Below, piece after piece: positions 17,474 through 50,427 of a stretch of DNA of 64,000 nt (position 1 is its first letter; each line of letters opens with the position of its first letter). The position numbers and the translations under genes were made by a program. The stretch is from Rhodospirillaceae bacterium. Lineage in GTDB: Bacteria > Pseudomonadota > Alphaproteobacteria > Rhodospirillales > Rhodospirillaceae. The notes beneath the pieces are model-generated. The model was not told the origin of the DNA. It searched no databases and saw nothing but the letters and a program-made list of their open reading frames with translations. The stretch lies in assembly GCA_019694335.1 (NCBI GenBank), contig JAIBCD010000011.1, positions 1 through 64,000 on the forward strand. The letters are read 5' to 3'.

Positions 17474-17547
17474 GCGGGTGTAGCTCAATGGTAGAGCAGA
17501 AGCCTTCCAAGCTTACGACGAGGGTTCGATTCCCTTCACCCGCTCCA
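17474..17547 (+). tRNA. tRNA-Gly (TCC), island integration target
   Basis: Complete cloverleaf: acceptor GCGGGTG/CACCCGC, D-arm TAGCTCAATGGTAGAGCA, anticodon loop CTTCCAA (anticodon TCC), T-arm GGGTTCGATTCCC, CCA encoded. Its last 46 bases (17502-17547, from the anticodon arm onward) are duplicated exactly at 50382-50427, marking it as the attachment site of the island. The tRNA is intact, so integration restored its 3' end. Confidence 0.97.
17502..17547 (+). repeat. att site at the integrase end (46-bp direct repeat)
   Basis: The 3' 46 bases of tRNA-Gly, identical to 50382-50427. Sequence outside the repeat differs at once on both sides (AA versus AC-type flanks at the left, TTC versus ATA at the right). 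Confidence 0.95.
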
Positions 17548-17649: not shown

Positions 17650-18726
17650 ATGCCCAAAATTCAGCAGCGCGGTCCTCACCAGTTTAGAGTGCAGTTTCGC
17701 CGAAACGGTGTTTCCGTCAGCGAGACATTCGAGACCCGGAAGGAAGCACAGGATTGGCTTCGCCTGACGGAAGGTAAGCTTACGGGTGGGGATTACGTTG
17801 ACCGTAAAGGTGCCCGTGCCACGACCTTACAGGAGGCCTGTGACTGGGCCATCGAGGGCAAGCATGCGGGGCTCGGCGCCAACGGCAAAAACCTCGAAGC
17901 TAAATGGCGCTATTGGAAGACCCAGGACCTGGGTCAATGGGCGCTCACCGCGATCCATGACTGGGACCTCATAGAATGGCGCAGGACGGTCCTGGACGAG
18001 GATAATGCCGAAGATGGGGAACTCGCCGGGCCGGAGGCTGATGGCGGTCCCCAGACCTGTATTCACCGCCTAAACGCCCTATCCAAACTGATCCAAATTT
18101 GGTCCCGGGCCCACAAGGTCCCCCTGGAGAACCCCGTCAAGCCGGGCGTTCGTCCCAAGAAACCCGACGGTCGTGACCGTAGGCTTTTCGAAGGAGAGGA
18201 AAAGCGCCTTTTAGACATTGCAAAAACGTCTTCACGTTCCTGGCTGCCCGCTGCGATTGCCATCTCTCTAGAAACCTGCGTTCGGCAGGGAGAACTCGCA
18301 GGGCTGGTATGGAGCCGGGTCGATCTCACATCCGCGCATCCTCACATCGATATTCCCAAGACCAAAAACGACCGCCCTCGACGCGTGCCTCTCTCAAAGA
18401 ACGCTGTAAAGGCTTTCAAGTCGATCATGCCGAAAGGTAAGTCTTCGGAATTCGCGGCAAAAACCGTTCTTGGTGTGGAGACGTCGAGGGGCATCATCCA
18501 CGCTTACCGCGAAGTCGTGAATGAAGAGAAATTTCCTGACTTCCGTTGGCATGATCTGCGGCATGAAGCGATTTCACGTCTCTTTGAAAATACCGATCTG
18601 CGTGACCACGAAATCATGGCTATCACCGGCCACCTCACCCCGGCGATGCTAGCGCGATACACCCATCTTCGTTCAGACCGTTTTGCCGCCCGACTGCCCG
18701 GCGGTAAACAACATCGGGCAGCTTAG
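17650..18726 (+). CDS. int: Tyrosine-type site-specific integrase
   Basis: A 358-residue phage-type tyrosine recombinase that would excise and insert the island at tRNA-Gly. The N-terminal half holds an arm-binding and a SAM-like core-binding domain. The catalytic domain shows the first Arg in ETCVRQGELAGLVW, HDLRHEAISRLFE (His-x-x-Arg) and ITGHLTPAMLARYTHL (second His and nucleophilic Tyr). All catalytic residues are present, so the enzyme may be active. It lies just inside the tRNA repeat, as is usual for tRNA-targeted islands. Confidence 0.95.
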   Translation: MPKIQQRGPHQFRVQFRRNGVSVSETFETRKEAQDWLRLTEGKLTGGDYVDRKGARATTLQEACDWAIEGKHAGLGANGKNLEAKWRYWKTQDLGQWALTAIHDWDLIEWRRTVLDEDNAEDGELAGPEADGGPQTCIHRLNALSKLIQIWSRAHKVPLENPVKPGVRPKKPDGRDRRLFEGEEKRLLDIAKTSSRSWLPAAIAISLETCVRQGELAGLVWSRVDLTSAHPHIDIPKTKNDRPRRVPLSKNAVKAFKSIMPKGKSSEFAAKTVLGVETSRGIIHAYREVVNEEKFPDFRWHDLRHEAISRLFENTDLRDHEIMAITGHLTPAMLARYTHLRSDRFAARLPGGKQHRAA

Positions 18727-37269: not shown

Positions 37270-37524
37270 TTAAGGCATTCCGCCGACAAAGCCGCTGGTG
37301 TCCTCGCCTTTGACCAGCGCAAGACGCACGCCGACGTGGCGGCAGTGCGGGCGCGGACAGGCAAGGTTCTTCGCGACTTCATCGAGGTTGACGTTGCGGT
37401 GTTCGACCTTGATGAGAAGCTGCACGGGACTTTGGAGCCATACATAGCGGCAACGCATACACGTCGCTTCCAAGAGCGCTGTGTCGTCCAAGTCGCGCAA
37501 ATACATATCCTCAAGCCACGTCAC
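37270..37524 (-). CDS. Small zinc-ribbon-like protein
   Basis: An 84-residue protein with four potential zinc ligands: CMRC in the first half and CPRPHC in the second. The GTG start overlaps the polymerase stop (GTGA), arguing for translational coupling. Length and Cys spacing suggest a zinc ribbon; function unknown. Longer in-frame starts lie inside the polymerase gene and are not family-like. Confidence 0.65.
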   Translation of the reverse strand: MTWLEDMYLRDLDDTALLEATCMRCRYVWLQSPVQLLIKVEHRNVNLDEVAKNLACPRPHCRHVGVRLALVKGEDTSGFVGGMP

Positions 37525-38774
37525 CAGAAGTCCTCCGCCGATGGAATGCGGTTGTAAGCAATCTTGCCGCCGGCGTAGCCGCCGGGTGGCGGTGTCCAAG
37601 GTCCGACCGTGACCACGCGCTTCCCGAACTTGCGGTTCAGCGTGTCGATGGTGTCGGTGATGCGCTCGCATTTCTGGCGGTCACTATCGTCGTTGAGCAG
37701 AAGATCGAGCTGGCGTTCATTCGCGGCCGAAAGCTCGGCCAGCGTCACGCCGACGCGCACGATTTCCGCGCGCGGCGCGATCTCGCGGCGTGCGCGTTGC
37801 CAGAGCCGCTTAAGGCCATCGAGACAGGCGTGGTCGTCTTTGACGCTCGGAAGGTCGTGCGTTCCGAACCACGCGCTGTTGCGTATATCGAGCCAGAGCC
37901 AAAGCTTGCGCGCAAAGAAGCCGTCGCGCCGCATCCGTCGCGCGGCCTTTGTTAAGAGCAGTCTGGAGATTTCCTCCGCCTTGCCGGCATCGCGCCAGCC
38001 TGGTGGTAGGACGCGGCCGTGGCCGAACATGCCGCGTGCTGTCGGCTGCGCGTGAAGATCGTAGCCGTGCAGCGCATACCACATGCGCTCGCCGTTCACG
38101 TTGCCCCAGAGCGCCCGCAAGTGTTTGGGTTGCGTCTTCCAGAGCGCGTCCATGCTCGTGATGCCGGCGGCACGGAGACGTTCCTCCATCCGGCGTCCGA
38201 CGCCGGGAATTGTCTCCAGCGGCAGCGGCAGGAGCGGTTGCGGCATATCCTTGGGATGCCAGATCGTTGTCCCGTTGGGCTTGTCGATCTTGCACGCGAT
38301 CTTTGCCAGCAGGCGATTGGCGGCGAAGCCGATCGAGCAAGTGATTTGATCGCCGACATTGCGTCGCAGTCGGTCCTTGATCCGCAGCGCCAGCGCCTCA
38401 GGCGCCGCAATGGCGCGGGTGTCGAGAATGCAGCACAGCTCATCGATGGATTTGACGGTCTCCACCGGGATCTCACAGGCGATCTCGTTGAGCAGCGTAT
38501 TGTGAGCGCGCCGGAACAGGTCCGGGCGCTGTGTCACCAGGATCAGGTCGGGACAGAGCGCCTTGGCTTCGGGCACCCGCATGACGTTCGAGCACCCGGC
38601 GGCTTTGGCTTCCTTGGAACAGGCGATGACCACGGTCGTATGCGCCGCGGACGTGTCGAAGGGGATCACGCCGACCGGCTTGCCCCGGAGCTGGGGCATG
38701 GCCTGCTGCATGACGGAGGCGAAAAAGCCGTCAAAATCGAGATACAGTCGCTCTATGGTCGCGGGCTGGCGCAT
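37521..38774 (-). CDS. Y-family DNA polymerase (DinB/UmuC-like)
   Basis: A 417-residue translesion polymerase. Catalytic acidic residues are visible in RLYLDFDGFFASV (palm start) and KSIDELCCIL (SxDE motif), with SIGFAANRLLAKIA and the helix-hairpin-helix TIPGVGRRMEERL following. A C-terminal extension of about 60 residues lacks a clear beta-clamp motif by eye. It heads a leftward three-gene unit opposite an SRAP gene, with a LexA box between them, so it is probably SOS-induced. Confidence 0.93.
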   Translation of the reverse strand: MRQPATIERLYLDFDGFFASVMQQAMPQLRGKPVGVIPFDTSAAHTTVVIACSKEAKAAGCSNVMRVPEAKALCPDLILVTQRPDLFRRAHNTLLNEIACEIPVETVKSIDELCCILDTRAIAAPEALALRIKDRLRRNVGDQITCSIGFAANRLLAKIACKIDKPNGTTIWHPKDMPQPLLPLPLETIPGVGRRMEERLRAAGITSMDALWKTQPKHLRALWGNVNGERMWYALHGYDLHAQPTARGMFGHGRVLPPGWRDAGKAEEISRLLLTKAARRMRRDGFFARKLWLWLDIRNSAWFGTHDLPSVKDDHACLDGLKRLWQRARREIAPRAEIVRVGVTLAELSAANERQLDLLLNDDSDRQKCERITDTIDTLNRKFGKRVVTVGPWTPPPGGYAGGKIAYNRIPSAEDFW

Positions 38775-38800
38775 GGGGTTTCCTCTGGGGGCGCGGATGA

Positions 38801-38815
38801 GAACAAAAAGAGAAC
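38801..38815. promoter_or_regulatory. LexA (SOS) box, GAAC-N7-GAAC
   Basis: Exact match to the alphaproteobacterial LexA box (GTTC-N7-GTTC on the other strand): GAAC at 38801-38804, seven bases, GAAC at 38812-38815. It lies between the divergent polymerase and SRAP genes (26 and 30 bases from their starts), so one box may control both. Confidence 0.85.
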
Positions 38816-38845
38816 TCTTGAGTCAAGCGATCATCCGGGGGATGC

Positions 38846-39523
38846 ATGTGTAATCGCTACGAAATCCGGGGTTCTATTAGCCAGATCAGGGCCTTAGCGA
38901 ATTTGCTCGCGCGCGAGCTTTTTACGACCCCGGCCACGGGCAACCTGGAGCCCCGCGACAGCGTCTATCCGGATCAGGATGCGCCGATCCTAGTGAGTCG
39001 GCCGGAGGGCGGCCTGGAACTGCGGCTTGCGCGATGGGGCTTCCCGCCCATCACCGGCAAGTCCGACGTCATCACCAACATCCGTAATCTCAAGAGCAAG
39101 TGGTGGAAGGACGTGAACCGCGAATGGCTCACGGCGCCCGCGTACCGCTGCCTTGTGCCGTTCACGGCCTTCGCCGAGCCAGTGCGAAATTCGACCTGGT
39201 TCTATACGCCGGCGGCCGAAGTCCCGTGCTTCGCCGGAATTTGGCGCCCGTGGAGCGGCGAGCGCCTCATGGCGACGGGCAAAGCGCGCCGCGAGCGCGT
39301 CCACCGCGACGATTGGCACCTGTACGCATTCCTCACGACAGAACCGAATGAGTTGGTGCGCCCGATCCACGAACGCGCCATGCCCGTCATTCTCGTCGAT
39401 CCCGCCGAGCAAGAAGAATGGCTGGCGGGCGGCGAGGCCAGCCTTCGCTTACAACGCACGTTGCCGGATGCAGACCTCCGAGTGAGGACAACGGTGCCCA
39501 CGTCGGAAGCGACGCGGGTATGA
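38846..39523 (+). CDS. SRAP-family protein (YedK/HMCES-like)
   Basis: A 225-residue protein of the SOS response-associated peptidase family, which forms covalent crosslinks with abasic sites in single-stranded DNA through Cys2. The start MCNRYE with Cys2, the segment RLARWGFPP, NIRN, RCLVPFTAFAEP and FLTTEPNELVRPIHERAMPVIL are typical. The divergent LexA box upstream fits SOS regulation. Its stop overlaps the start of the next gene (ATGA). Confidence 0.93.
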   Translation: MCNRYEIRGSISQIRALANLLARELFTTPATGNLEPRDSVYPDQDAPILVSRPEGGLELRLARWGFPPITGKSDVITNIRNLKSKWWKDVNREWLTAPAYRCLVPFTAFAEPVRNSTWFYTPAAEVPCFAGIWRPWSGERLMATGKARRERVHRDDWHLYAFLTTEPNELVRPIHERAMPVILVDPAEQEEWLAGGEASLRLQRTLPDADLRVRTTVPTSEATRV

Positions 39524-40065
39524 CGACGCGCCGAAATACCGGCAAGGCCGACACCGGCGCACCCGTCGTCTCCGAGGACGTGCCGTTACTGTCGTCCATG
39601 ACACCCTCAAACCTGTTGAACCTTCACGCGCGCATTATTGACGAGTTGCGCGCCCGCGAATTGATCCGCACATCTAACAATCCCGTCGGTGATTTCGCCG
39701 AATATCTCTTTTGCAAAGCCTTCGGCTGGAACCGGACAGGGAACTCGAATGCCCATCTCGATGCGATCGATAGCGACGGCAAGCGTTATCAGATCAAGGC
39801 ACGGAAGATTACCTCCCATAATGCTTCACGTCAGTTAGGCGCGCTTCGCGATCTTGAGCACGGCCATTTCGATTTTCTCGCCGGCGTTCTTTTTTCTGAA
39901 AGGTACGAAGTCCGGCGCGCCATCATTATTCCCCACGCTCTCATTGGCCCGCGCGCGAAGTGGGTTGCCAAAACCAACAGTCACAAATTCTTTCTCCGTG
40001 ACGAGGTGTGGACGTGGAACGGCGTGACGGACGTCACCGCGGAATTGCAGGCAGTTGATTTTTAG
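39520..40065 (+). CDS. Putative PD-(D/E)xK nuclease-like protein
   Basis: A 181-residue soluble protein. The segment NPVGDFAEYLFCKAFGW is followed by HLDAIDSDGKRYQIKARK, which fits a D...QxK variant of the PD-(D/E)xK nuclease core, as in DUF6998-like proteins. The nuclease role is inferred from this motif alone. It is translationally coupled to SRAP and presumably shares the LexA-controlled promoter. The longer frame from 39418 overlaps SRAP and is not preferred. Confidence 0.6.
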   Translation: MTTRRNTGKADTGAPVVSEDVPLLSSMTPSNLLNLHARIIDELRARELIRTSNNPVGDFAEYLFCKAFGWNRTGNSNAHLDAIDSDGKRYQIKARKITSHNASRQLGALRDLEHGHFDFLAGVLFSERYEVRRAIIIPHALIGPRAKWVAKTNSHKFFLRDEVWTWNGVTDVTAELQAVDF

Positions 40066-40464
40066 CGCCTGCGCCGCTTCTTTCGTTAGCAGTAGAATAT
40101 TATTCACAGTCATCGGGGTACGGGCGCCTGGGCTTCGCCCACCGTCGTGCTCGTGAACCGAGCCCGCGAAGGGCGGTCTCGGCCCTCCGGGCTTCGCCCA
40201 ACTGGCGCAAGCAAGATCCAATGCCATCGCGCTGCCGCGCGCTGAGATTGTTGGTGGCCTGACGCCGCGAAAGCGGGGTGGCGGCGCTCCCTTCTAGTCC
40301 CGCCCGGTCGGGCGGCAACCCTCACTACGTTCGGGTGCTCCACTGCGTTGCGCCCCTGCGGGTGCCATCCCTCCCTCAATGGCGGGCCTCTGCGGTCGCT
40401 TCATCGCCGCCACCCCTCTTTCGGGGTCAGGTGCGCGGTTTTTAGTGGCGCAGGAGGTCAGCAG
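40066..40464. other. Intergenic region before ardC
   Basis: About 400 GC-rich bases without a convincing gene. It contains several short hairpins built on GGGCTTCGCCC-like stems (near 40130, 40190) and the CCCGCCCGGTCGGGCGG stem near 40302-40318. Such regions upstream of ardC in conjugative elements can act in single-stranded promoter use, but that is inference. Confidence 0.4.
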
Positions 40465-41391
40465 ATGCGTTCAGACAACACACAGCGAGCCCGTGGTGAG
40501 CGCGGGAATCTTTATCAGGAAGTCACCGACAAGATCGTTGCGGAACTGGAACAGGGGCGCTTTCCCTGGGTGCAGCCGTGGGGCGCGGCCAATGCGGGAT
40601 TAGGCTTGCCCAAGAACGCCGCCACATCGCGCCGCTACAGTGGAATCAATATCCTGATCCTTTGGGGGGCTGTCCACGATAAGCAATTTCGTGGACAAAA
40701 CTGGCTCACGTTTCGCCAAGCGTTGACCCTCGGGGGATGCGTTCGCAAGGGCGAGAAAGGCACCACGGTTTTCTATGCCGACCGTTTCATTCCCAAGAGC
40801 GAACTGGAACGCGCGCAGAAGACGGGAGACGAAGCGAACGCCGTTCCGTTCCTCAAACGCTTCACGGTGTTTAACGTCGATCAATGCGACGGATTGCCGG
40901 AAACGGCCTTCGCAGGAATTGCCCCGCTCCCGGAACGCGAAGCCATCCCGCATGCGGAAGACCTGATTAAAGCCACGGGCGCGGACTTTCGCATAGGTGG
41001 CGCGCGCGCCTTCTATCAGACGGCGGAGGACTTTATCCAAGTCCCGCCGCAGCCCGCGTTTCATCAGCAGATTGATTACTACCGGACGTGCTTTCACGAA
41101 CTCGGGCACTGGACCGGAGCCAAGCACCGCTTGGCACGCGATCATTCCGGGCGGTTTGGTTCCCATCCTTACGCGCGCGAGGAACTGGTGGCGGAAATGT
41201 CATCGGCTTTCGTGTGCGCGGCGCTTGGGATTATTCCGACCGTGCGCCATGCGGATTACCTCGCGTCCTGGCTGGAAGTCCTGAAAGAGGACAATCACGC
41301 GATCTTTCGCGCCGCGTCGCACGCGAGCAAGGCAGCGGATTTCATCCTCGCTTTTGATGCGGGTGCGATGCCCGAGAGCGAGGCCGCATGA
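40465..41391 (+). CDS. ArdC-type antirestriction protein
   Basis: A 308-residue protein: N-terminal ssDNA-binding domain (NLYQEVTDKIVAELEQGRFPWVQPW and LTFRQALTLGG...GEKGTTVFY region) and a C-terminal metallopeptidase domain with HELGHW (HExxH) and a downstream EELVAEMSSAFVC. ArdC proteins protect incoming DNA from restriction during conjugation. A strong AGGAGG ribosome binding site precedes ATG 40465. The stop overlaps the DUF2958 start (ATGA). Confidence 0.9.
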   Translation: MRSDNTQRARGERGNLYQEVTDKIVAELEQGRFPWVQPWGAANAGLGLPKNAATSRRYSGINILILWGAVHDKQFRGQNWLTFRQALTLGGCVRKGEKGTTVFYADRFIPKSELERAQKTGDEANAVPFLKRFTVFNVDQCDGLPETAFAGIAPLPEREAIPHAEDLIKATGADFRIGGARAFYQTAEDFIQVPPQPAFHQQIDYYRTCFHELGHWTGAKHRLARDHSGRFGSHPYAREELVAEMSSAFVCAALGIIPTVRHADYLASWLEVLKEDNHAIFRAASHASKAADFILAFDAGAMPESEAA

Positions 41392-43132: not shown

Positions 43133-43149
43133 GGTAAGATTATCTTACC
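43133..43149. promoter_or_regulatory. Palindromic operator upstream of the nucleotide cassette
   Basis: A perfect palindrome with 7-bp arms, GGTAAGA-TTA-TCTTACC, 19 bases before the ACP-like start at 43169; a further half-site-like GTAAGG follows at 43154. Its position next to an operon encoding an XRE repressor suggests autoregulation. Confidence 0.6.
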
Positions 43150-43168
43150 AAATGTAAGGAGCGCGAGC

Positions 43169-43462
43169 ATGACCCACGACGACGCGAAAAAGGCACTTTT
43201 ATCGGTGTTAGAGAACATCCAGACCGTAAGTGGTCTCGATTGCCCGCCTTTGCAAGGGACGGATATCCCCACCAAGGTCCTCCCCAAATTCGACAGCACC
43301 ATATGGCCCGTGGCTACCACCCTCGTGGCACGCAAACTCGGCGTCTCCATTCCCAACAACGTACATATTTTTGGTGGCGAACATGGAGCACCCCTTTTGT
43401 CGGTAGATCAAATCGCCTCGGCGATCTGCAAGCAGTCCAAGCCTCTCCCGGCCGCAGCATGA
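43169..43462 (+). CDS. Acyl-carrier-protein-like small protein
   Basis: A 97-residue protein that resembles an acyl/peptidyl carrier domain. A first helix (DDAKKALLSVLENIQTV) and a loop lead to LPKFDSTIWPVATTLVARKLGVSIP, in which D42-S43 matches the phosphopantetheine attachment motif (Asp-Ser) at the start of helix II, followed by the typical LGVxIP turn and a last helix (LLSVDQIASAI). The assignment is by pattern, not by search; the usual Leu after DS is Thr here. An AAGGAG ribosome binding site precedes ATG 43169. An AcpS-type transferase lies 4 kb away in the same locus. Its stop overlaps the XRE start. Confidence 0.55.
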   Translation: MTHDDAKKALLSVLENIQTVSGLDCPPLQGTDIPTKVLPKFDSTIWPVATTLVARKLGVSIPNNVHIFGGEHGAPLLSVDQIASAICKQSKPLPAAA

Positions 43463-43818
43463 GCACAGACGAACAATCTCGCCGCAAAGCGATGGCCGAG
43501 CGACTAAAGCAGGCCCGTCGACTTTCCGGGTTGAGTCAAGGACAGGTGGCTCAACGCATGAATCTGCATCGACCGTCGATTTCGGAGATCGAAGCCGGCA
43601 ATCGTCGTGTCAGCGCCGAAGAGCTGAGCCAGTTCGCAGAAATCTACGACGTGAGCCTGTCGTACCTCGCCGGCGAGGGTGACGATTCTCTCGCCATTGA
43701 AGACCCGCGCCTCAAGCTTGCCGCTCGCGAATTGAAGAAGTTGTCGCCTGAGTCGCTGGACAATCTTCTCAAGGCGCTTGCCGCCATGCGCGCCAGCGAT
43801 GAGGACGCCAAAGAGTGA
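43459..43818 (+). CDS. XRE-family transcriptional regulator
   Basis: A 119-residue protein with an N-terminal helix-turn-helix (AERLKQARRLSGLSQGQVAQRMNLHRPSISEIEAGNRR, shown in part as LSGLSQGQVAQRM) and a helical C-terminus. It lies immediately before an ImmA/IrrE protease gene with overlapping codons; such pairs work as repressor and its cleaving protease. It probably binds the palindrome at 43133 and controls the whole downstream operon. Confidence 0.9.
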   Translation: MSTDEQSRRKAMAERLKQARRLSGLSQGQVAQRMNLHRPSISEIEAGNRRVSAEELSQFAEIYDVSLSYLAGEGDDSLAIEDPRLKLAARELKKLSPESLDNLLKALAAMRASDEDAKE

Positions 43819-44669
43819 CCGATCGCAAAGGCCTTTTCCGCCAAGCCGTCGCTGCGGCTGTCGAGTTGCGCGACAAAACGGGCTTCGACCAATTCGGTCC
43901 CGCCGACCCGTACCTTGCTGCACAGAAGCTTGGCGTGAAGGTCCTTTTTCTCGACGTGAGCATGGAAGGGTTTTACTTCAAGGGCGCCGCACCGCGAATC
44001 CTGTTGTCGGCGTTGCGGCCGCTTCCTCGTCGGGCTTTTACCTGCGCCCACGAACTTGGCCACCATCACTTCGGTCATGGCTCCACGATGGACCAGCTTC
44101 AAGCCGACGAACGCGCGGACTCCAACAAGCCCGAAGAAATCCTTGCCAACGGCGTAGCCTCTTTCTTCCTCATGCCCACTGTCGGCCTTCGCGGTGCCTT
44201 CGCGCGGCGGGGCTGGTCCATCGCCAAGCCGACACCTCTCCAGCTTTACACGGTCGCATGCGAATTCGGTGTTGGCTACGACACGCTGTTGAATCACCTG
44301 AGCTACACACTCAAGGAGATCGGATCTGCGCACACGGCCGAACTCGACCGATGGGCGCCGCAGCGCATTCGCCAGCAACTGCTCAAGGATGATTTCGACT
44401 CCTTTGTGGTGGTCGATGCCGAAAGCCTGGCGCAGCACTACGATGTTGAACAAGGTGCCGCCATCATCCTCCCACTCGATGTGGATGTGGAGGGCCGCGC
44501 CTTGGAGCATCTGGGCTCTTACACGAATTTTGATCTGTACGGCGCCGTTAAGCGCGGAAAGGCCACCGCATCCTGGGGAAAGAAAGTCTGCACTATCAGA
44601 GTTCAGCCCAAGGCCTACGTTGGAGCTGCTGTGAACCGCTTTGAGGAGGATCCCGATGAAGACGATTAG
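43815..44669 (+). CDS. ImmA/IrrE-family metallopeptidase
   Basis: A 284-residue protein with an HExxH zinc motif, H79-ELG-H83, in CAHELGHHHFGHG, and the downstream region ILANGVASFFLMP typical of the ImmA/IrrE family. It has a C-terminal extension of about 120 residues without a recognised domain. Members cleave partner XRE repressors, often after DNA damage or phage signals. The GTG start overlaps the XRE stop, and its 3' end overlaps the next start by 14 bases. Confidence 0.88.
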   Translation: MTDRKGLFRQAVAAAVELRDKTGFDQFGPADPYLAAQKLGVKVLFLDVSMEGFYFKGAAPRILLSALRPLPRRAFTCAHELGHHHFGHGSTMDQLQADERADSNKPEEILANGVASFFLMPTVGLRGAFARRGWSIAKPTPLQLYTVACEFGVGYDTLLNHLSYTLKEIGSAHTAELDRWAPQRIRQQLLKDDFDSFVVVDAESLAQHYDVEQGAAIILPLDVDVEGRALEHLGSYTNFDLYGAVKRGKATASWGKKVCTIRVQPKAYVGAAVNRFEEDPDEDD

Positions 44670-45456
44670 CGCGTTGCTCGAAGCCGACAACCTGTCGCTT
44701 GGTTGGGCGAAAGTTGTCGATCAGTTATCGCGGCCCGGCGTCGAACGCATCGCGCCGTTGACGCTGTCGATCTCCGGCTTCGATGACAACGGCGTCGCTG
44801 CCGAAATCCCGGAAATCCGCCAAGCCGTCGATGCCTTTCTCGAGGCTCAAGGCAAACGCGATACCGAGAATGTTGCCTGGACGATCTTCCCGGAACGCTA
44901 TCACCAGATTGCGGGCGGTGACCGCGAGAAGTTCTTCGAGCTGTTCATCGAGAGCTTTCAACGCGTCCAGGACTTCAACGCCCGCAATAACAAGCGGGGA
45001 TCGTACTTTCAGCGCCTCGTTGACTTGAACGGCAACGGCAAAGGCCCCAATCAGCTCAAGTGGATGCTCGATGACTACGATGAGCATCCGAAGGCGCGCC
45101 GCACGTCGAAGTTCCAGGCTACCACTTTCGATCCTGCGCGCGACTATACCTCGACCGGTCAGTTGGAGTTTCCCTGCCTCCAACAGGTCAGCTTTGTGCC
45201 TGACGACGGTGACCTCTATGTGAACGCATTTTATGCCACGCAGCAGATCGCCCGTAAGGGATACGGCAACTATTTGGGCCTTGCCCGTCTCGGAGCCTTT
45301 ATGGCGCGCGAAATGGAACTGCGCCTAACCCGCCTCAACATCTTTGTCGGTGTCGCCAAGATGGACGTCGGCAAGACTGAAGCCGACTTTCAGGCCTTGC
45401 TTGCGGTCGCGAAGAAACATCTCGCCGCGCAGAAAGGCGCCGCGGTTGCCGCGTGA
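44656..45456 (+). CDS. Thymidylate-synthase-like protein
   Basis: A 266-residue protein whose C-terminal half follows the thymidylate synthase pattern: LEFPCLQQVSFVPDDG matches the catalytic LPPCH...FY region (Cys174), AFYATQQIARKGYGNYLGLARL matches the phosphate/substrate-binding R-Q-R-S...N segment (Asn205). The N-terminal half is divergent. TS homologues can methylate or hydroxymethylate dUMP/dCMP; which reaction applies here cannot be told. The ribosome binding site GAGGAGG supports ATG 44656. It is followed at once by a HMUDK-type gene. Confidence 0.7.
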   Translation: MKTISALLEADNLSLGWAKVVDQLSRPGVERIAPLTLSISGFDDNGVAAEIPEIRQAVDAFLEAQGKRDTENVAWTIFPERYHQIAGGDREKFFELFIESFQRVQDFNARNNKRGSYFQRLVDLNGNGKGPNQLKWMLDDYDEHPKARRTSKFQATTFDPARDYTSTGQLEFPCLQQVSFVPDDGDLYVNAFYATQQIARKGYGNYLGLARLGAFMAREMELRLTRLNIFVGVAKMDVGKTEADFQALLAVAKKHLAAQKGAAVAA

Positions 45457-46502
45457 AACCCTCCCGCGAAGCTACGCCGCGTTCGACGGCGCTGACAAAA
45501 CTAAAAACTACGACCGTCTATGATCTTTATTGGCGGTTCGCCGTCGAGCGCCAAGACGTCTACTTTCGGCGCCTCGAGGGCGAAGCTCCGCCCTGGACCG
45601 GCGATGCGATTTTGCAGCAGTTCAAGTTCACCAATGCCTATCGCGCGGCGGACCGGGTGAGCCAGTACCTCATAAGGAACGTCATCTACCGCAAAGACTA
45701 TCCCGATTCGGCGAAGGAGGTCGTCTTTCGCATCCTGCTGTTCAAGCTGTTCAACAAAATATCGACGTGGCAGCTCCTGGAGGATCAAGTCGGACCTCTG
45801 CATTGGCAGAGTTTCGATTTCGAGGCCTATGACGCGGTGTTGTCCAAGGCCGCCAAGAAAGGAAGCAAACTCTATTCTGCGGCCTACATCATTCCGCCTG
45901 TGAGCCTTAGCAGCTCCGGCATCAAACATCATGGTCACTTGCGTCTGATCGAGATGATCCTCCGCGGCGACTTTGTGCCGCGTCTGCAACAGACGCAAAG
46001 CCTGCAAGAGGTTTTCGCGCTTCTCAAATCCTTCCCGTCGTTGGGCGATTTTCTCGCCTTCCAACTCGCGATCGACTTGAACTATGCGACCGTGATCAAT
46101 CATGACGAGGCTGAGTTTGTAGTCGCGGGACCTGGCGCAAGGGACGGCCTAGCCAAAACTTTCGTGGGCGTAGAGGACGTGGACCCGGTGGACCTAATCC
46201 GCCTGATGATGGATCGCCAGGAGGCAGAATTCGCGCGGCTTGGTTTAAACTTCAAGACACTTTGGGGACGGCGTCTTCAGCTCATCGATTGCCAAAATCT
46301 GTTCTGTGAGATCAGCAAGTACACGCGTGTCTCGCATCCGGAAATCCAGGGTCTCTCGGGCCGCACGCGCATTAAACAGATCTTCCGGTCCGAGGCGCAG
46401 CCGGTTCAGCCATGGTTCCCGCCGAAGTGGGGTTTGAACGACCGCATTCCAAGTTATCCGGCCGCGCAAGGTTCGCGCGATTTGTTGGGAGGAGCAAAAT
46501 GA
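45453..46502 (+). CDS. HMUDK/aGPT-PPlase-type helical-domain protein
   Basis: A 349-residue protein with the conserved start of the family described computationally around hypermodified thymine in phages (5-hmdU DNA kinase helical domain; alpha-glutamyl/putrescinyl-thymine pyrophosphorylase group): YWRFAVERQDVYFRRLEG, then PPWTGDAILQQFKFTNAYRA and DRVSQYLIRNVIY. Annotation pipelines often name such proteins nucleotide kinase domain-containing. The activity in bacteria is not established. Its start overlaps the TS-like stop, and its stop overlaps the MazG start (ATGA). Confidence 0.7.
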   Translation: MKPSREATPRSTALTKLKTTTVYDLYWRFAVERQDVYFRRLEGEAPPWTGDAILQQFKFTNAYRAADRVSQYLIRNVIYRKDYPDSAKEVVFRILLFKLFNKISTWQLLEDQVGPLHWQSFDFEAYDAVLSKAAKKGSKLYSAAYIIPPVSLSSSGIKHHGHLRLIEMILRGDFVPRLQQTQSLQEVFALLKSFPSLGDFLAFQLAIDLNYATVINHDEAEFVVAGPGARDGLAKTFVGVEDVDPVDLIRLMMDRQEAEFARLGLNFKTLWGRRLQLIDCQNLFCEISKYTRVSHPEIQGLSGRTRIKQIFRSEAQPVQPWFPPKWGLNDRIPSYPAAQGSRDLLGGAK

Positions 46503-47416
46503 ACTTCGCTGACTATCAGCAAAAGGCGCTGCTGACCGACCGCACGCCGACGCTGGAGGGCGATCCAGAGGCCTCGCGACTCATCCCACTTTTGGGCCTA
46601 TCTGGTGAGGCCGGCGGGCTGCTCACGGAATACAAGAAACGCCTGCGCGACGGGCCGAGCCATGTCCGGTTCGTTGAACGCGTAGCCGAGGAACTGGGCG
46701 ATATTCTTTGGTATGTGTCGAACCTCGCGAGTAAGTACGACCTCGCCTTGGAGGATATTGCCGCGCAGAACCTCGCCAAGGCCGCCGACCTTCATGGCAC
46801 GAACGCATCTGCCGGCGCGGATACAACAACCGCCCAGGATAGCGAGAAGTTCCCGCGGCAGTTTACAATCACGTTCACGGAGGTGCAGGAGCGGGGACGA
46901 GTTGAGGTGCGTGCGCAAATGGATGGGCGCCTGCTCGGGGCGGAGCTCACCGACAACGCTTATGATGACGATGGCTATCGCTTCCATGACGTGTTCCATA
47001 TCGCCAATGCCGCGATTCTCGGGTGGTCGCCGGTACTACGCGGGCTCATGCGTATCAAGCGCCGCAGCGTCCCGAAGATAGACGAGGTCGAGGACGGCGG
47101 ACGCGCCGCCGTGATCGAGGAAGGCGTCGTTGCTCTTGCCTTCGACTATGCACGGGGTCATCAGTTTCTCGAAGGCGTGTCCGATATTGATACGCAGGTA
47201 CTGCGCACGATCCAAGGCATGTGCGGCCACCTGGAAGTGGCCTCACGGCCGCTGACCTTGTGGCGTAAAGCCATCCTCGAAGGCTTCAAGGTCTGGCGCG
47301 AAGTCGTGAAGAATCGCGGTGGCATTGTCCATGCCGACTTGGACGGAGGCGAAATCCGTTATCTCGGTATCGCACCGAGTGCGACCACCACGGCCGCAAC
47401 ACTCGTGTCCGAGTGA
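46499..47416 (+). CDS. MazG-type nucleotide pyrophosphohydrolase with C-terminal domain
   Basis: A 305-residue protein. The N-terminal MazG-like helix bundle has E37 and E44 in GLSGEAGGLLTEYKK and E65-x-x-D68 in RVAEELGDILWYV; the usual second Glu of the first ExxE is Gly here. A C-terminal domain (YRFHDVFHIANAAILGW, LRGLMRIKRRSVP, AAVIEEGVVALAFDYA) looks like the MazG C-terminal region found in nucleotide-centred conflict systems. It likely removes pyrophosphate from a (modified) NTP. Its last 58 bases overlap the convergent AcpS gene. Confidence 0.82.
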   Translation: MNFADYQQKALLTDRTPTLEGDPEASRLIPLLGLSGEAGGLLTEYKKRLRDGPSHVRFVERVAEELGDILWYVSNLASKYDLALEDIAAQNLAKAADLHGTNASAGADTTTAQDSEKFPRQFTITFTEVQERGRVEVRAQMDGRLLGAELTDNAYDDDGYRFHDVFHIANAAILGWSPVLRGLMRIKRRSVPKIDEVEDGGRAAVIEEGVVALAFDYARGHQFLEGVSDIDTQVLRTIQGMCGHLEVASRPLTLWRKAILEGFKVWREVVKNRGGIVHADLDGGEIRYLGIAPSATTTAATLVSE

Positions 47417-47760
47417 GAAAAGCTGCACAGTAGTGAGGAGATGCCCGCCTCTGCGGCTGCAATCTTCGCTGCGCCATGGAGCATCAGGATCGGTTTTCCG
47501 GACGGCTCCGATGAAACGACGATGTCCGTGTGAGCAACGCCTTTGGGTCCACCGAGTGCTTTGTAGGTGGCTTCCTTGGCGGCGAACCGCGCCGCTAACC
47601 GCGCTAGCCTGTCAACGCCGGTGCCAACAGACGTGAGCTCGTCGTCGCTGAAGCAGCGACGCAGAAGTTCCACGTCGTCCGCGCCGTACAGCTGTCGGAA
47701 TCTTTCAAGTTCGATAAGGTCGAGACCCAGGCCTACAAGTGTCGTCGGACCGGGTGCCAA
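47359..47760 (-). CDS. AcpS-type 4'-phosphopantetheinyl transferase
   Basis: A 133-residue protein that would attach phosphopantetheine to a carrier-protein serine. The two family motifs are visible: GLGLDLIELERF (metal-binding Asp14) and ARFAAKEATYKAL (Glu63, Lys). Length fits a trimeric AcpS. The start is a TTG directly after the stop of the upstream 66-residue gene, with no gap. As an extra AcpS in a mobile island it probably serves a local carrier protein, the obvious candidate being the ACP-like product at 43169. Confidence 0.82.
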   Translation of the reverse strand: MAPGPTTLVGLGLDLIELERFRQLYGADDVELLRRCFSDDELTSVGTGVDRLARLAARFAAKEATYKALGGPKGVAHTDIVVSSEPSGKPILMLHGAAKIAAAEAGISSLLCSFSHSDTSVAAVVVALGAIPR

Positions 47761-47961
47761 TTAGCGCGCGGCGCTGCGGCGCAGGGCGGCGTCGGGAATC
47801 TTCTCAAGCGCGTCCTTACGGTCGTCGGCAAACTTCTTCGCGTCGCGGACAACGCGGGTCATTTCGGATTCATGCCGGCCCTTGAGGACAGTCTTATAGG
47901 AACCGGACTCAGACCCGCTTTTCTGCGTATTAACGTTATACGTGCGGCTCTTGAGGCCCAT
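47761..47961 (-). CDS. Small basic protein of unknown function
   Basis: A 66-residue, Lys/Arg/Ser-rich protein (start MGLKSRTYNVNTQKSG), predicted helical in its second half. It overlaps the patatin gene by 26 bases and abuts the AcpS gene, so it is tightly embedded in the leftward operon. No family recognised. Confidence 0.5.
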   Translation of the reverse strand: MGLKSRTYNVNTQKSGSESGSYKTVLKGRHESEMTRVVRDAKKFADDRKDALEKIPDAALRRSAAR

Positions 47962-49552
47962 TGGAATCCTCCAAGTCTTTCAACTCCTTCAATACCAGAT
48001 CGAAGAAGTCTTTTACAGCTCCCTCAACGACATCCATTGCAGTGGCTGTCGCATCGTCTTGATTTAACGGCGAATTTCCGTCCAGCTGTACCAGGAGCCG
48101 CGGTTCGCCCGTACTCTTATCTAAGATCGGAATACACATTATCCAGGCCGAAGAGGGCCACCTGACCTTACGCCGCAGCCGATTCCCGTCCCCCGGAAGG
48201 TCGAAAAACGGCTGCAAGGGGTAGATTTCCAGCCGGCTCTCCTTGTCCGCCCACGCCAAGCCGGCGACCGAACCCTCCAAGGGGACCAACATGGCCTCAT
48301 CGGCGTCATCGTCAAAACCGACGCAATAGGAGAAGCGGAGAGATCGAGTATAACCGCGGTCCAAACGCCCTACCGCGACCCGTACACGGTGGGCGGTGCC
48401 TCTTCCGCCGGGGGACAAGCCAAGGCCGTCCTCCGCCAGAGATTGGGCGACTTGGCACGCGTCGCGGTAGATCGCCGGCAATCGAGTGAGCCGTTTGGCC
48501 AACCAAACCTTTGCGGCTTGGGAAACATTCTTAACCTCGCGCCGCGCCATCTCACCCGTGACGTCAAAGTCGAGTACGTCGATCTTCGTCGGTAGCGCCA
48601 GCCGCTCGGTCGGGCCTGAGACGCGGGTATTCAATTCACCGGAGCCGAAGAGCGCTGTTCGGACTGCGGCGCCCATCCATTGATGGGGATGAACCGCGTC
48701 GGTATCCGGGGCGTCTTCGATTTCAACAGCGATCGTGATCGCGCCGGGATCCAATTCACGCTCCTCGTCAAACGGCCATGCCGGCAAATTCGAAACGATG
48801 CCTCCGTCGACATGCAGTTCGTTGTCGATAGGCCAAGGCGCGAAGATGATCGGAAGACAAAGCGATGCAGCGACGGCATCGGCTACGGGAGTTAACGGTG
48901 TTCGTTCCGGCGAAAAAAGGTGAAGACGCCCCTGTGAAAGGTTGGCGCTCACGATCTTCAAGGAAGGTAGGTCGCCGCGCCCGAAATCGGACATACGGAC
49001 CACGCGGTCCTTCTCCTGAGGAAACATCTTTTCTTGAAGAAGTTGACCCAGCGCCGTTCTCAATTTCGACAGGTTCGCCAGGCCGCCGACGATTCTGCGG
49101 TACACGAACCATACGGCCGTACCGATCACGACAAAGCTGATGCAGGCTACCCAAAAGGTATAGCTCGGCGCGATCTTGGTTGCGGCCCACGTGAGCAACA
49201 AGGGAAGAACCCATGCTCCAACTAACGCGGTGCCGAATATCCAGCGGTGCCGTGTAAGCCACCGAAAGACCTTGATCCTGGCCCACCCGCCGCGCCCAAA
49301 AAGATCGGTCACGCGCTGGATACTGGTATCGATCGTCGTCAACTTTGCGAGGATCGTGTGCTCGTTGCCCGGGTTTATCAGATCGTCGGCCGTGAACCCC
49401 GCGGCCGCAAGCGTGGCCACAATCGATCCGGCGGACGTACCCGCCAGGCCCGCAAACTGAACTGCGCTTTGTTCAAGGGCCTTGAGCGCTGCGACATGGA
49501 CTATGCCCTTGGCGCCACCTCCCGAAAACGCAACAAAAACCCGTTGCTTCAT
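47936..49552 (-). CDS. Patatin-like phospholipase with membrane insert and possible GAF-like domain
   Basis: A 538-residue protein. The patatin core shows the oxyanion motif SGGGAKG (residues 10-16), nucleophile elbow GTSAGS (Ser40) and the catalytic dyad Asp in HVDGGIVSNLP. An insert with two hydrophobic helices (around residues 100-150) should anchor it to the membrane. The C-terminal 150 residues (from about 390: YTRSLRFSYCVGFDDD, GSVAGLAWADK, SSAWIMCIPILDKSTGEP) follow the strand pattern of a GAF-type sensor, an inference. Patatins in defence systems act as membrane-damaging effectors; no cyclic-nucleotide cyclase is nearby. Confidence 0.85.
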   Translation of the reverse strand: MKQRVFVAFSGGGAKGIVHVAALKALEQSAVQFAGLAGTSAGSIVATLAAAGFTADDLINPGNEHTILAKLTTIDTSIQRVTDLFGRGGWARIKVFRWLTRHRWIFGTALVGAWVLPLLLTWAATKIAPSYTFWVACISFVVIGTAVWFVYRRIVGGLANLSKLRTALGQLLQEKMFPQEKDRVVRMSDFGRGDLPSLKIVSANLSQGRLHLFSPERTPLTPVADAVAASLCLPIIFAPWPIDNELHVDGGIVSNLPAWPFDEERELDPGAITIAVEIEDAPDTDAVHPHQWMGAAVRTALFGSGELNTRVSGPTERLALPTKIDVLDFDVTGEMARREVKNVSQAAKVWLAKRLTRLPAIYRDACQVAQSLAEDGLGLSPGGRGTAHRVRVAVGRLDRGYTRSLRFSYCVGFDDDADEAMLVPLEGSVAGLAWADKESRLEIYPLQPFFDLPGDGNRLRRKVRWPSSAWIMCIPILDKSTGEPRLLVQLDGNSPLNQDDATATAMDVVEGAVKDFFDLVLKELKDLEDSNGPQEPHV

Positions 49553-49701
49553 TGCTCCCCGCAGCCAACCAAGTTAAACGCACGATCATGCTCAGCTCGC
49601 CATAAAAGTGCCCACAGCTCGATTTTGCACGTCATTTATTGTTTCGGCCGTGTCTTCTTGCCCAGGATATGCCAGATATTCCGCAAGGGAGTGTTCCGGC
49701 T

Positions 49702-49959
49702 ATGTCCCGCGTAACTGTCGGAAAATGGGGAAAGAACTTGGCGATTCGGGTTCCCGTTAGGCTGGCGAAGACCTTAGGTCTCAGCGCGGGGGACGAGGTC
49801 GAAATTGAGGTCAAGGACGGGGATATCGTTATTCATCGTCCCGCTGCCCTCAATCGCGCCGACGCGATAAAAGCGGCCGAGGACATTCTCAAGAACGCGA
49901 AGGGGCATTCGCTGGGCGGGTCTTCAATAAAGGAACTGATTAACGAGGGTCGCCGGTGA
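49702..49959 (+). CDS. AbrB/MazE-like antitoxin (VapB type)
   Basis: An 85-residue protein with a swapped-hairpin AbrB DNA-binding domain at its start (SRVTVGKWGKNLAIRVPVRLA, shown in part as GKWGKNLAIRVP, and LGLSAGDEVEIEV) and a C-terminal toxin-binding tail. ATG 49702 has an AAGGGAG ribosome binding site. It overlaps (GTGA) the broken vapC gene, the normal order for VapBC modules. Confidence 0.88.
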   Translation: MSRVTVGKWGKNLAIRVPVRLAKTLGLSAGDEVEIEVKDGDIVIHRPAALNRADAIKAAEDILKNAKGHSLGGSSIKELINEGRR

Positions 49960-50381: not shown

Positions 50382-50427
50382 GCCTTCCAAGCTTACGACG
50401 AGGGTTCGATTCCCTTCACCCGCTCCA
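50382..50427 (+). repeat. Distal att site (46-bp direct repeat of tRNA-Gly)
   Basis: Exact copy of 17502-17547 without the 5' half of the tRNA, so it cannot encode a tRNA. It marks the right end of the island; chromosomal sequence resumes at 50428. Confidence 0.95.

Follow-up and report, generated by a model that had tools for sequence, protein, structure and literature searches.

A candidate antiviral defence cassette with a pyrimidine-nucleotide core on a mobile island of a Rhodospirillaceae bacterium

Nine genes at positions 43169-49552 of a 64,000-nucleotide stretch of Rhodospirillaceae bacterium DNA (assembly GCA_019694335.1, contig JAIBCD010000011.1, positions 1 to 64,000; this whole stretch is called the window below) combine a CapH/CapP-like regulator pair, several proteins of nucleotide-acting families, an acyl carrier protein (ACP)-like protein with its own AcpS and a patatin-type lipase (Table 1). 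We give an even chance to the reading that this set represents a mobile, inducible and modular abortive-infection cassette, whose effector, here a GAF-gated membrane lipase, can be exchanged and is under the control of a pyrimidine-nucleotide core; the exact chemistry is proposed with less confidence than the reading as a whole. Defence is the best reading because the cassette recurs in unrelated genomes and differs there in its effector-type neighbours. Furthermore, its mobility, its rare and patchy occurrence, the damage-type regulator, the nucleotide enzymes, the effector-type genes that vary among lineages and the presence of Lamassu, Shedu, CBASS and TIR genes nearby suit an immune cassette better than an operon for modification or metabolism. 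Relatives in distant bacteria, which stand beside other killing genes, suggest a type of antiviral defence that has so far been described only in part.

From the parts present, their conservation, recurrence and exchange we infer the following sequence of events. Infection would expose single-stranded DNA (ssDNA), upon which the ImmA/IrrE protease would cut the XRE repressor in the way that CapP cuts CapH; expression of the operons would then be released. The thymidylate synthase (TS)-like, MazG/MazG_C and HMUDK_hel proteins would then act on a deoxynucleotide or base of the uracil or hydroxymethyluracil (hmU) type and thereby make or read a pyrimidine cue; among relatives, a dCTP-deaminase-like (DCD) protein may join this core, or a uracil-DNA glycosylase (UDG) may replace HMUDK_hel. 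The dedicated AcpS would turn the ACP into the phosphopantetheine form, which would gate or join the pyrimidine-cue step. Finally, the cue would reach the exchangeable effector, which is here presumably a patatin lipase that is anchored in the membrane, bears a GAF-like sensor domain and would cut the cell's own membrane.

Gene order and regulator pair

All nine reading frames are intact, open and terminated by stop codons. The six plus-strand genes encode, in this order, the ACP-like, XRE, ImmA/IrrE, TS-like, HMUDK_hel and MazG + MazG_C proteins and overlap by 4, 4, 14, 4 and 4 bp, and the minus-strand genes for the patatin, a 66-aa protein and AcpS converge on them, with a tail-to-tail overlap of 58 bp between MazG and AcpS. 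The reading-frame check bears out the preliminary description, made from the same DNA, of a six-gene operon with overlaps of 4-14 bases that faces a patatin operon. Its first gene is present as well, only the start given for it (43133) lies inside a longer TTG frame from 43118, and the likely ATG is at 43169. The XRE repressor and the ImmA/IrrE protease, which has an HExxH motif, lie side by side, as is characteristic of a CapH/CapP-type pair. CapP is reported to cleave CapH upon activation by ssDNA (PMC10904395). The identities proposed earlier for both regulators, the MazG-type hydrolase, the patatin and AcpS all held in the family searches listed in Table 1, and the characteristic acidic residues of MazG and the GTSAG and DGG motifs of the patatin are kept.

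Table 1. Coordinates of the cassette genes, of the island borders and of papain-like gene pairs in related loci (E-values of family matches)
Feature	Positions	Strand	Evidence or remark
ACP-like carrier, 97 aa (TTG start 43118 possible)	43169..43462	+	Ser43 in 'FDS', expected phosphopantetheine site
XRE-type repressor, CapH-like	43459..43818	+	Pfam HTH_3 4.9e-14; PADLOC capH 4.6e-14
ImmA/IrrE metalloprotease, CapP-like	43815..44669	+	HELGH at residue 79; Peptidase_M78 4.2e-18 (65.8 bits); PADLOC capP 8.1e-11
TS-like protein, 266 aa with ATG start (TTG start 44641 possible)	44656..45456	+	TIGR03283 3.7e-11, below cut-off
HMUDK_hel protein (5-hmdU DNA kinase helical-domain family)	45453..46502	+	PF18723 7.7e-106
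MazG + MazG_C nucleotide pyrophosphohydrolase, 305 aa from ATG	46499..47416	+	PF18722 4.6e-74 (248.5 bits); PF03819 1.3e-4
AcpS	47359..47760	-	PF01648 3.7e-11
66-aa protein	47761..47961	-	between patatin and AcpS side
Patatin phospholipase	47936..49552	-	GTSAG (Ser40), DGG (Asp249); PF01734 1.9e-27 (97.2 bits)
attL, 3' end of tRNA-Gly	17502..17547	+	46-bp direct repeat
Tyrosine-integrase-like gene of island (putative)	17650..18726	+	read by eye
attR, exact 46-bp repeat of attL	50382..50427	+	direct repeat
Papain-like gene + ImmA-I42 pairs in related loci	L099 5180-6882; L101 5255-6885; L051 12229-13922; also L012, L018, L053		

Recurrence of the cassette

The preliminary description had proposed to look for the same gene order in unrelated genomes, and it was indeed found there. 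We compared 44 loci with an HMUDK_hel gene, which stem from 17 of 22 plasmid records, 4 genome contigs, 22 further genome stretches and the window itself; gene presence was scored by profiles based on the window proteins and, in the case of DCD, on the gene of locus L010 (L numbers denote the compared loci). The four genome-contig loci came from a single-protein query and not from an alignment, and the sampling leans on plasmids. In 24 of the 44 loci, which belong to alphaproteobacteria, cyanobacteria and actinobacteria, XRE, ImmA and TS-like genes are encoded as well (the core). These core loci also include MazG (19), AcpS (13), the ACP family (13), DCD (7) and patatin (4), compared with MazG in nine, DCD in two and AcpS, ACP or patatin in none of the 20 loci without the core. 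Several of the loci are near relatives (L006/L020, L009/L021, L003/L004, L014/L063, in a tree without support values), hence they do not amount to 44 independent events. A chance cluster of genes was considered and is rejected because of the recurrence in other genomes.

Aminobacter anthyllidis and Sphingobium boeckii possess all genes of the set, patatin and small protein included, and their HMUDK_hel proteins are 73% and 71% identical to that of the window. Aminobacter possesses a second, divergent copy (L062), which is devoid of MazG and has kept patatin (46% identical to the window protein), small protein and AcpS; in the FastTree tree of HMUDK_hel (no support values) the window, both Aminobacter copies and Sphingobium fall into one clade. 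Conjugative plasmids of Sinorhizobium fredii and Rhizobium rosettiformans show the same six-gene order plus AcpS and no patatin, the order is also conserved in the absence of patatin on Allocoleopsis and Nostoc plasmids, and it is rearranged on three Streptomyces plasmids and in Mycobacterium sp. ST-F2.

Generally, HMUDK_hel is rare. Among 99 relatives two had it, as did 9 of 386 genomes of the class and 5 of 397 of the phylum; the counts were 7 of 396 for the phylum of Mycobacterium sp. ST-F2 and 4 of 347 for the order of Aminobacter. One match in each count is the genome of the window itself or the centre genome, and the 14 control genomes gave no match in any of these counts. HMUDK_hel relatives also exist in 490 phage records. 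A phage origin of the whole cassette was considered and rejected, because only 3 of 18 HMUDK_hel loci on viral contigs possess XRE, ImmA and TS-like genes, and the alignment search of viral contigs with the patatin returned no relative.

The nucleotide core

The HMUDK_hel protein scores 354 bits against its Pfam family (gathering cut-off 25), with profile positions 1-281 of 281 covered, and its alignment displays many invariant charged residues. A sequence search of the PDB gave no relative (best E 1.2), and no kinase family was matched in the family-library scans, Pfam, PADLOC and NCBIfam among them. Hence, the earlier label of an HMUDK-type protein is strongly supported as far as the helical domain is concerned, whereas the kinase domain that it implies was not matched. 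An HhH-DNA-glycosylase fold, which we had suspected from a 'PSLG...A' stretch, is not claimed, since the comparison with an HhH-GPD profile (12 of 21 fetched HhH-GPD loci used) yielded 0.8% against 0.6% for the best control.

The MazG protein retains the acidic residues of the metal site almost throughout, namely E66 in 24, E94 in 23 and D97 in 24 of 24 aligned rows; HMUDK_hel and MazG matches below 300 bits or 60% coverage were dropped from these conservation alignments. For the TS-like protein no Pfam match was obtained at E<=1, PF00303 included, its score against NCBIfam TIGR03283 (42.9 bits) stays below the curated cut-off of 174.55, and its PDB matches by sequence are weak, the best one (E 0.14) being a thymidylate synthase. 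However, Cys179 and Asn210 (numbered from 44641), which are 31 residues apart, are invariant in all 23 aligned rows, after 3 of the 25 non-window matches had been dropped as partial pieces, so the assignment of the preliminary description is backed by these residues rather than by the family scores. We take them to correspond to the catalytic Cys and the dUMP-reading Asn, C146 and N177 of E. coli TS. At the position of the phosphate-binding Arg, R166 of E. coli TS, the window protein has Ala (YATQQ in its clade), while Arg is kept in the actinobacterial rows (YRSH) and some others.

Outside the cassette, HMUDK_hel genes occur in several other settings. In Brevibacterium phage LuckyBarnes (L071 2828-6843) the genes for a TS, two glycosyltransferases and HMUDK_hel are consecutive, likely as a thymine-hypermodification cluster. 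On Erythrobacter and Sphingosinicella plasmids (L007 6294-11664, L015 6351-12263) a single HMUDK_hel gene is flanked by a dnaQ/exonuclease gene and by dnaE, which suggests a separate role in replicating modified DNA. On a Sinorhizobium chiapasense plasmid (L021 253-8053) three TIR genes are followed by those for a 532-aa thymidylate synthase, a TylF-type methyltransferase and HMUDK_hel, and on a Parabacteroides plasmid (L019 5883-8973) HMUDK_hel is part of a tight run, after a TIR and a hypothetical gene and before a radical SAM gene.

These settings bear on two other explanations. The preliminary description had offered DNA modification as an option, and the cassette could in principle be an anti-restriction device in which a modified thymine shields island or plasmid DNA. 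The carriage of relatives on conjugative plasmids, the stand-alone genes beside dnaQ/exonuclease and dnaE and the phage homologue in the likely modification cluster of LuckyBarnes are in line with it, but its key enzyme, an hmU-DNA kinase, was not matched in the family scans, which leaves this alternative without its central activity in the window. Moreover, transferase and polymerase are likewise missing from the cassette, effectors and XRE/ImmA would have no explanation, and the island in the window is chromosomal; we regard hypermodification as very improbable. Alternatively, HMUDK_hel, or UDG in the sister form described below, may directly recognise hmU or U in modified phage DNA and trigger the effector, while the TS-like protein and MazG keep the base out of host DNA. 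Such a reader is unlikely in our view. HMUDK_hel and UDG hold equivalent places in otherwise similar cassettes, an HMUDK_hel homologue is part of the TS-glycosyltransferase-glycosyltransferase run of LuckyBarnes, and phages with hmdU-derived bases have been described (PMC6449724). On the other hand, the system would be limited to a minority of phages, ACP/AcpS and the GAF-like sensor would not be explained, and the profile comparison with HhH-GPD glycosylases hardly exceeds its control.

The carrier protein and its AcpS

Within the abortive-infection cassette proposed here, the ACP/AcpS step is unexplained and the most unusual part. The window's ACP-like protein had no family match of its own in the library scans, PF00550 included, and a PDB sequence search gave nothing useful. 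Support comes from relatives in the same slot, of which four of ten (L063, L006, L014, L064) score above the PP-binding cut-off and one below it; the slot protein of L099 scores below the PF00550 cut-off, and the L064 ACP belongs to the window protein's own profile family. Ser43 is invariant in 13 of 13 rows, preceded by Asp, or by Asn in L003 and L004. Comparison by hhalign of the ACP family with the slot ACPs plus AcpP gave 46.6% with the DS motifs aligned (10 controls <=0.8%), and 12.4% with AcpP alone. The ACP-like identity thus keeps the support of Ser43 and of same-slot relatives, and is weaker than the preliminary description implied. Elsewhere the genome encodes AcpP and one other ACPS-family protein (contig C95), which makes two ACPS-family genes in all, so the cassette AcpS is an extra copy.

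Patatin, small protein and exchanged parts

PADLOC scores the patatin as a phospholipase effector (45.3 bits, 1.8e-12), whereas it reaches 34.4 bits against NF041079, the model of the cGAMP-activated CBASS lipases, whose cut-off is 200. Inside the lipase domain there is a variable hydrophobic stretch at approximately residues 106-152, read by eye. The C-terminal 179 residues had no Pfam GAF match; compared with a GAF profile for which related genomes supplied 24 sequences (from 24 of 30 fetched loci), they gave an hhalign probability of 37% (E 3.5e-4, 106 columns), with 10 tail controls at <=0.4%, which hints at a possible GAF-like domain. The 66-aa protein lies between patatin and AcpS side in all five loci that have the three genes (window, L010, L011, L062, L094), and a weak match of 20 bits was found in L095.

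In place of the patatin, the Sinorhizobium and Rhizobium plasmids (L003/L004) carry Lamassu-type genes on the AcpS side (LmuB 1.5e-122 in L003, 2.3e-39 in L004), with a SIR2_2 gene in L004. In cyanobacterial L005 a CBASS lipase gene directly precedes HMUDK_hel-MazG and a TIR gene follows. Sister loci, which lie on plasmids of Bradyrhizobium, Sphingomonas and S. fredii GR64, encode XRE, ImmA, TS-like and MazG proteins without an HMUDK_hel match, and all three have an annotated UDG gene beside MazG (confirmed by Pfam for L099); they were taken from 10 plasmid records (H81-H90), outside Streptomyces, with only a distant TS-like match. Neighbours of these sister loci include Shedu (9.1e-155) and a caspase-family-annotated gene that was not matched by PADLOC.

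A papain-like (C1 peptidase) gene adjoins ImmA in two of the three sister loci and in the HMUDK_hel loci L012, L018, L051, L052 and L053, and all six ImmA proteins scanned from such loci, two of them from sister loci, bear a chagasin-type I42 domain after the protease domain, four above and two below the cut-off. Since I42 domains are an inhibitor class for papain-like proteases, a built-in protease/inhibitor switch is possible. A hidden I42 inhibitor in the ImmA tail of the window is not claimed, as the similarity of variant I to variant II tails is weak (hhalign 24%) and lies mostly ahead of the I42 part.

In Aminobacter and Sphingobium a DCD gene (1.2e-16 in L010) is inserted between AcpS and the small protein, and its product has a hydrophobic C-terminal stretch, read by eye. 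The window cassette has no DCD gene, and two DCD-family matches are located on other contigs of the genome. Defences by dCTP deaminase and dGTPase are precedents for nucleotide depletion, and the core might accordingly deplete or poison the thymidine or uridine nucleotide pool after infection, with the patatin operon as an independent neighbour. Members of the MazG, DCD-like and TS-like families work on dNTP pools, and 7 of 24 core loci have the DCD-like gene, yet the window is without the DCD gene that is present in Aminobacter and Sphingobium, and the core is joined by patatin, small protein and AcpS in three genera, with two such copies in Aminobacter. We consider such starvation quite unlikely, and prefer a core that controls its effector.

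The host island

An integrase-like gene follows the tRNA-Gly gene, the last 46 bp of which are repeated exactly downstream of the cassette. Repeat and integrase-like gene place the cassette at the attR end of an approximately 33-kb island, which is chromosomal, as judged by its att sites, and mostly lower in G+C than the left flank. Hence, the mobile position assumed in the preliminary description is correct. The family matches and the att repeat support its overall picture, in which nucleotide-centred genes share a mobile island with a lipase and with a regulator pair that we find to be CapH/CapP-like.

The island also bears genes of the copper-resistance type (P-type ATPase, multicopper oxidase and RND pump, read by eye). 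The putative products of the genes at 37521-41391 are a polymerase of the Y family, an SOS protein of the YedK type and an anti-restriction protein similar to ArdC. A MazE-like antitoxin gene, whose identity as part of the earlier toxin-antitoxin claim was confirmed by Pfam, lies at 49639-49959 between the patatin start and attR, with no recognised toxin adjoining.

The position of the cassette at attR beside this antitoxin gene and the plasmid carriage of relatives would agree with a role in island or plasmid maintenance, in which loss of or damage to the element releases the patatin. However, such an addiction module would comprise many enzymes, and the 66-aa protein is the sole candidate for a patatin antitoxin; we judge it highly improbable.

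Weighing the defence reading

For the abortive-infection cassette, a more specific chemistry can be formulated. The phosphopantetheine-armed carrier and the core of TS-like, HMUDK_hel (or UDG) and MazG proteins may make a hypermodified, possibly acylated, pyrimidine-deoxynucleotide alarm, which is sensed by the GAF-like domain of the lipase, while other lineages wire the core to other effectors. This version is tentative, and we consider it rather unlikely to be right in all its parts.

Several observations weigh against an immune function of the cassette. The XRE and ImmA families are common, and other PADLOC models match the two regulators besides capH and capP. Furthermore, 20 of the 44 HMUDK_hel loci are without the core, and 11 of the 24 core loci are without AcpS within the stretch fetched. 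The loss of the phosphate-binding Arg in the window's TS-like clade makes catalysis uncertain. The ACP match is weak, given that hhalign first gave 2.5%/2.7% (controls <=0.4%) and reached 46.6% only once the query included L064 and the target AcpP, and that 5 of 10 same-slot proteins showed no PP-binding match at all. The GAF match of the patatin tail is only 37%, and no second-messenger synthase family was matched among the nine proteins in the family-library scans. The patatin occurs also without the nucleotide core: a Komagataeibacter plasmid (L094 8007-10290) encodes patatin, small protein and AcpS with no core within the 17.5 kb fetched, a set which is either a remnant or a self-sufficient sub-module. 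Finally, the cyanobacterial loci L016 and L017 show no obvious effector adjoining the core, and the Lamassu, Shedu and CBASS genes nearby may be the usual company in a defence island.

Relation to known systems

CBASS shares with the window the regulation by XRE and ImmA (CapH/CapP) and a patatin effector (CapV). In contrast, none of the nine proteins matched a CD-NTase in Pfam, PADLOC or NCBIfam, a TS-like/HMUDK_hel/MazG core being present instead, and the window patatin stays far short of the cut-off for CBASS lipases and possibly has a GAF-like tail. In PADLOC, moreover, no match at E<=1 was obtained for HMUDK_hel, MazG, AcpS and the 66-aa protein, and the TS-like protein reached only 10.9 bits. 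Lamassu and Shedu genes neighbour the same core or its sister form on the side of AcpS (L003, L004, L099), but their hallmark proteins, the LmuB SMC ATPase included, are not among the window's nine according to PADLOC.

Phage clusters for thymidine hypermodification resemble the window in that a TS-family enzyme and HMUDK_hel occur together, as in LuckyBarnes. Among such clusters we also count those of ViI, M6 and phiW-14, in part after PMC6449724. The window type differs from them in that it is situated on islands and plasmids, has XRE/ImmA, ACP/AcpS and effectors and is without kinase, glycosyltransferases and aminotransferases.

The DefensePredictor paper of 2026 (PMC13092281) counts thymidylate synthase and 5-hydroxymethyluracil kinase among the domains for which a role in E. 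coli defence was newly validated, whereas aGPT-Pplase, MazG and MazG-C appear in predicted systems, with citation of a 2015 survey; UDG and HTH stand in the legend of predicted systems. The same domain families are thus named as defensive there, and the parts of our cassette are not all new. Unlike the window cassette, the sections and legends compared have no occurrence of 'acyl carrier', 'ImmA' or 'patatin'. The earlier statement that no described system has this composition therefore needs to be restricted: several domains are already listed as defensive, whereas the whole composition is absent from the literature on ACP/AcpS or these nucleotide domains, among the matches listed and as far as titles and abstract openings tell.

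Outlook

If the proposed function is true, bacterial immune signalling would extend to deoxy-pyrimidine chemistry and to ACP/AcpS carrier switches; among the matches listed, titles and abstract openings of the ACP/AcpS literature contained no such use in immunity. It would also provide a function for bacterial HMUDK_hel and MazG_C proteins, which stand in the databases as 'nucleotide kinase domain-containing' and 'nucleoside triphosphate pyrophosphohydrolase' entries. Moreover, the natural swaps, i.e. UDG for HMUDK_hel and Lamassu-type genes for the patatin, make the mechanism directly testable.

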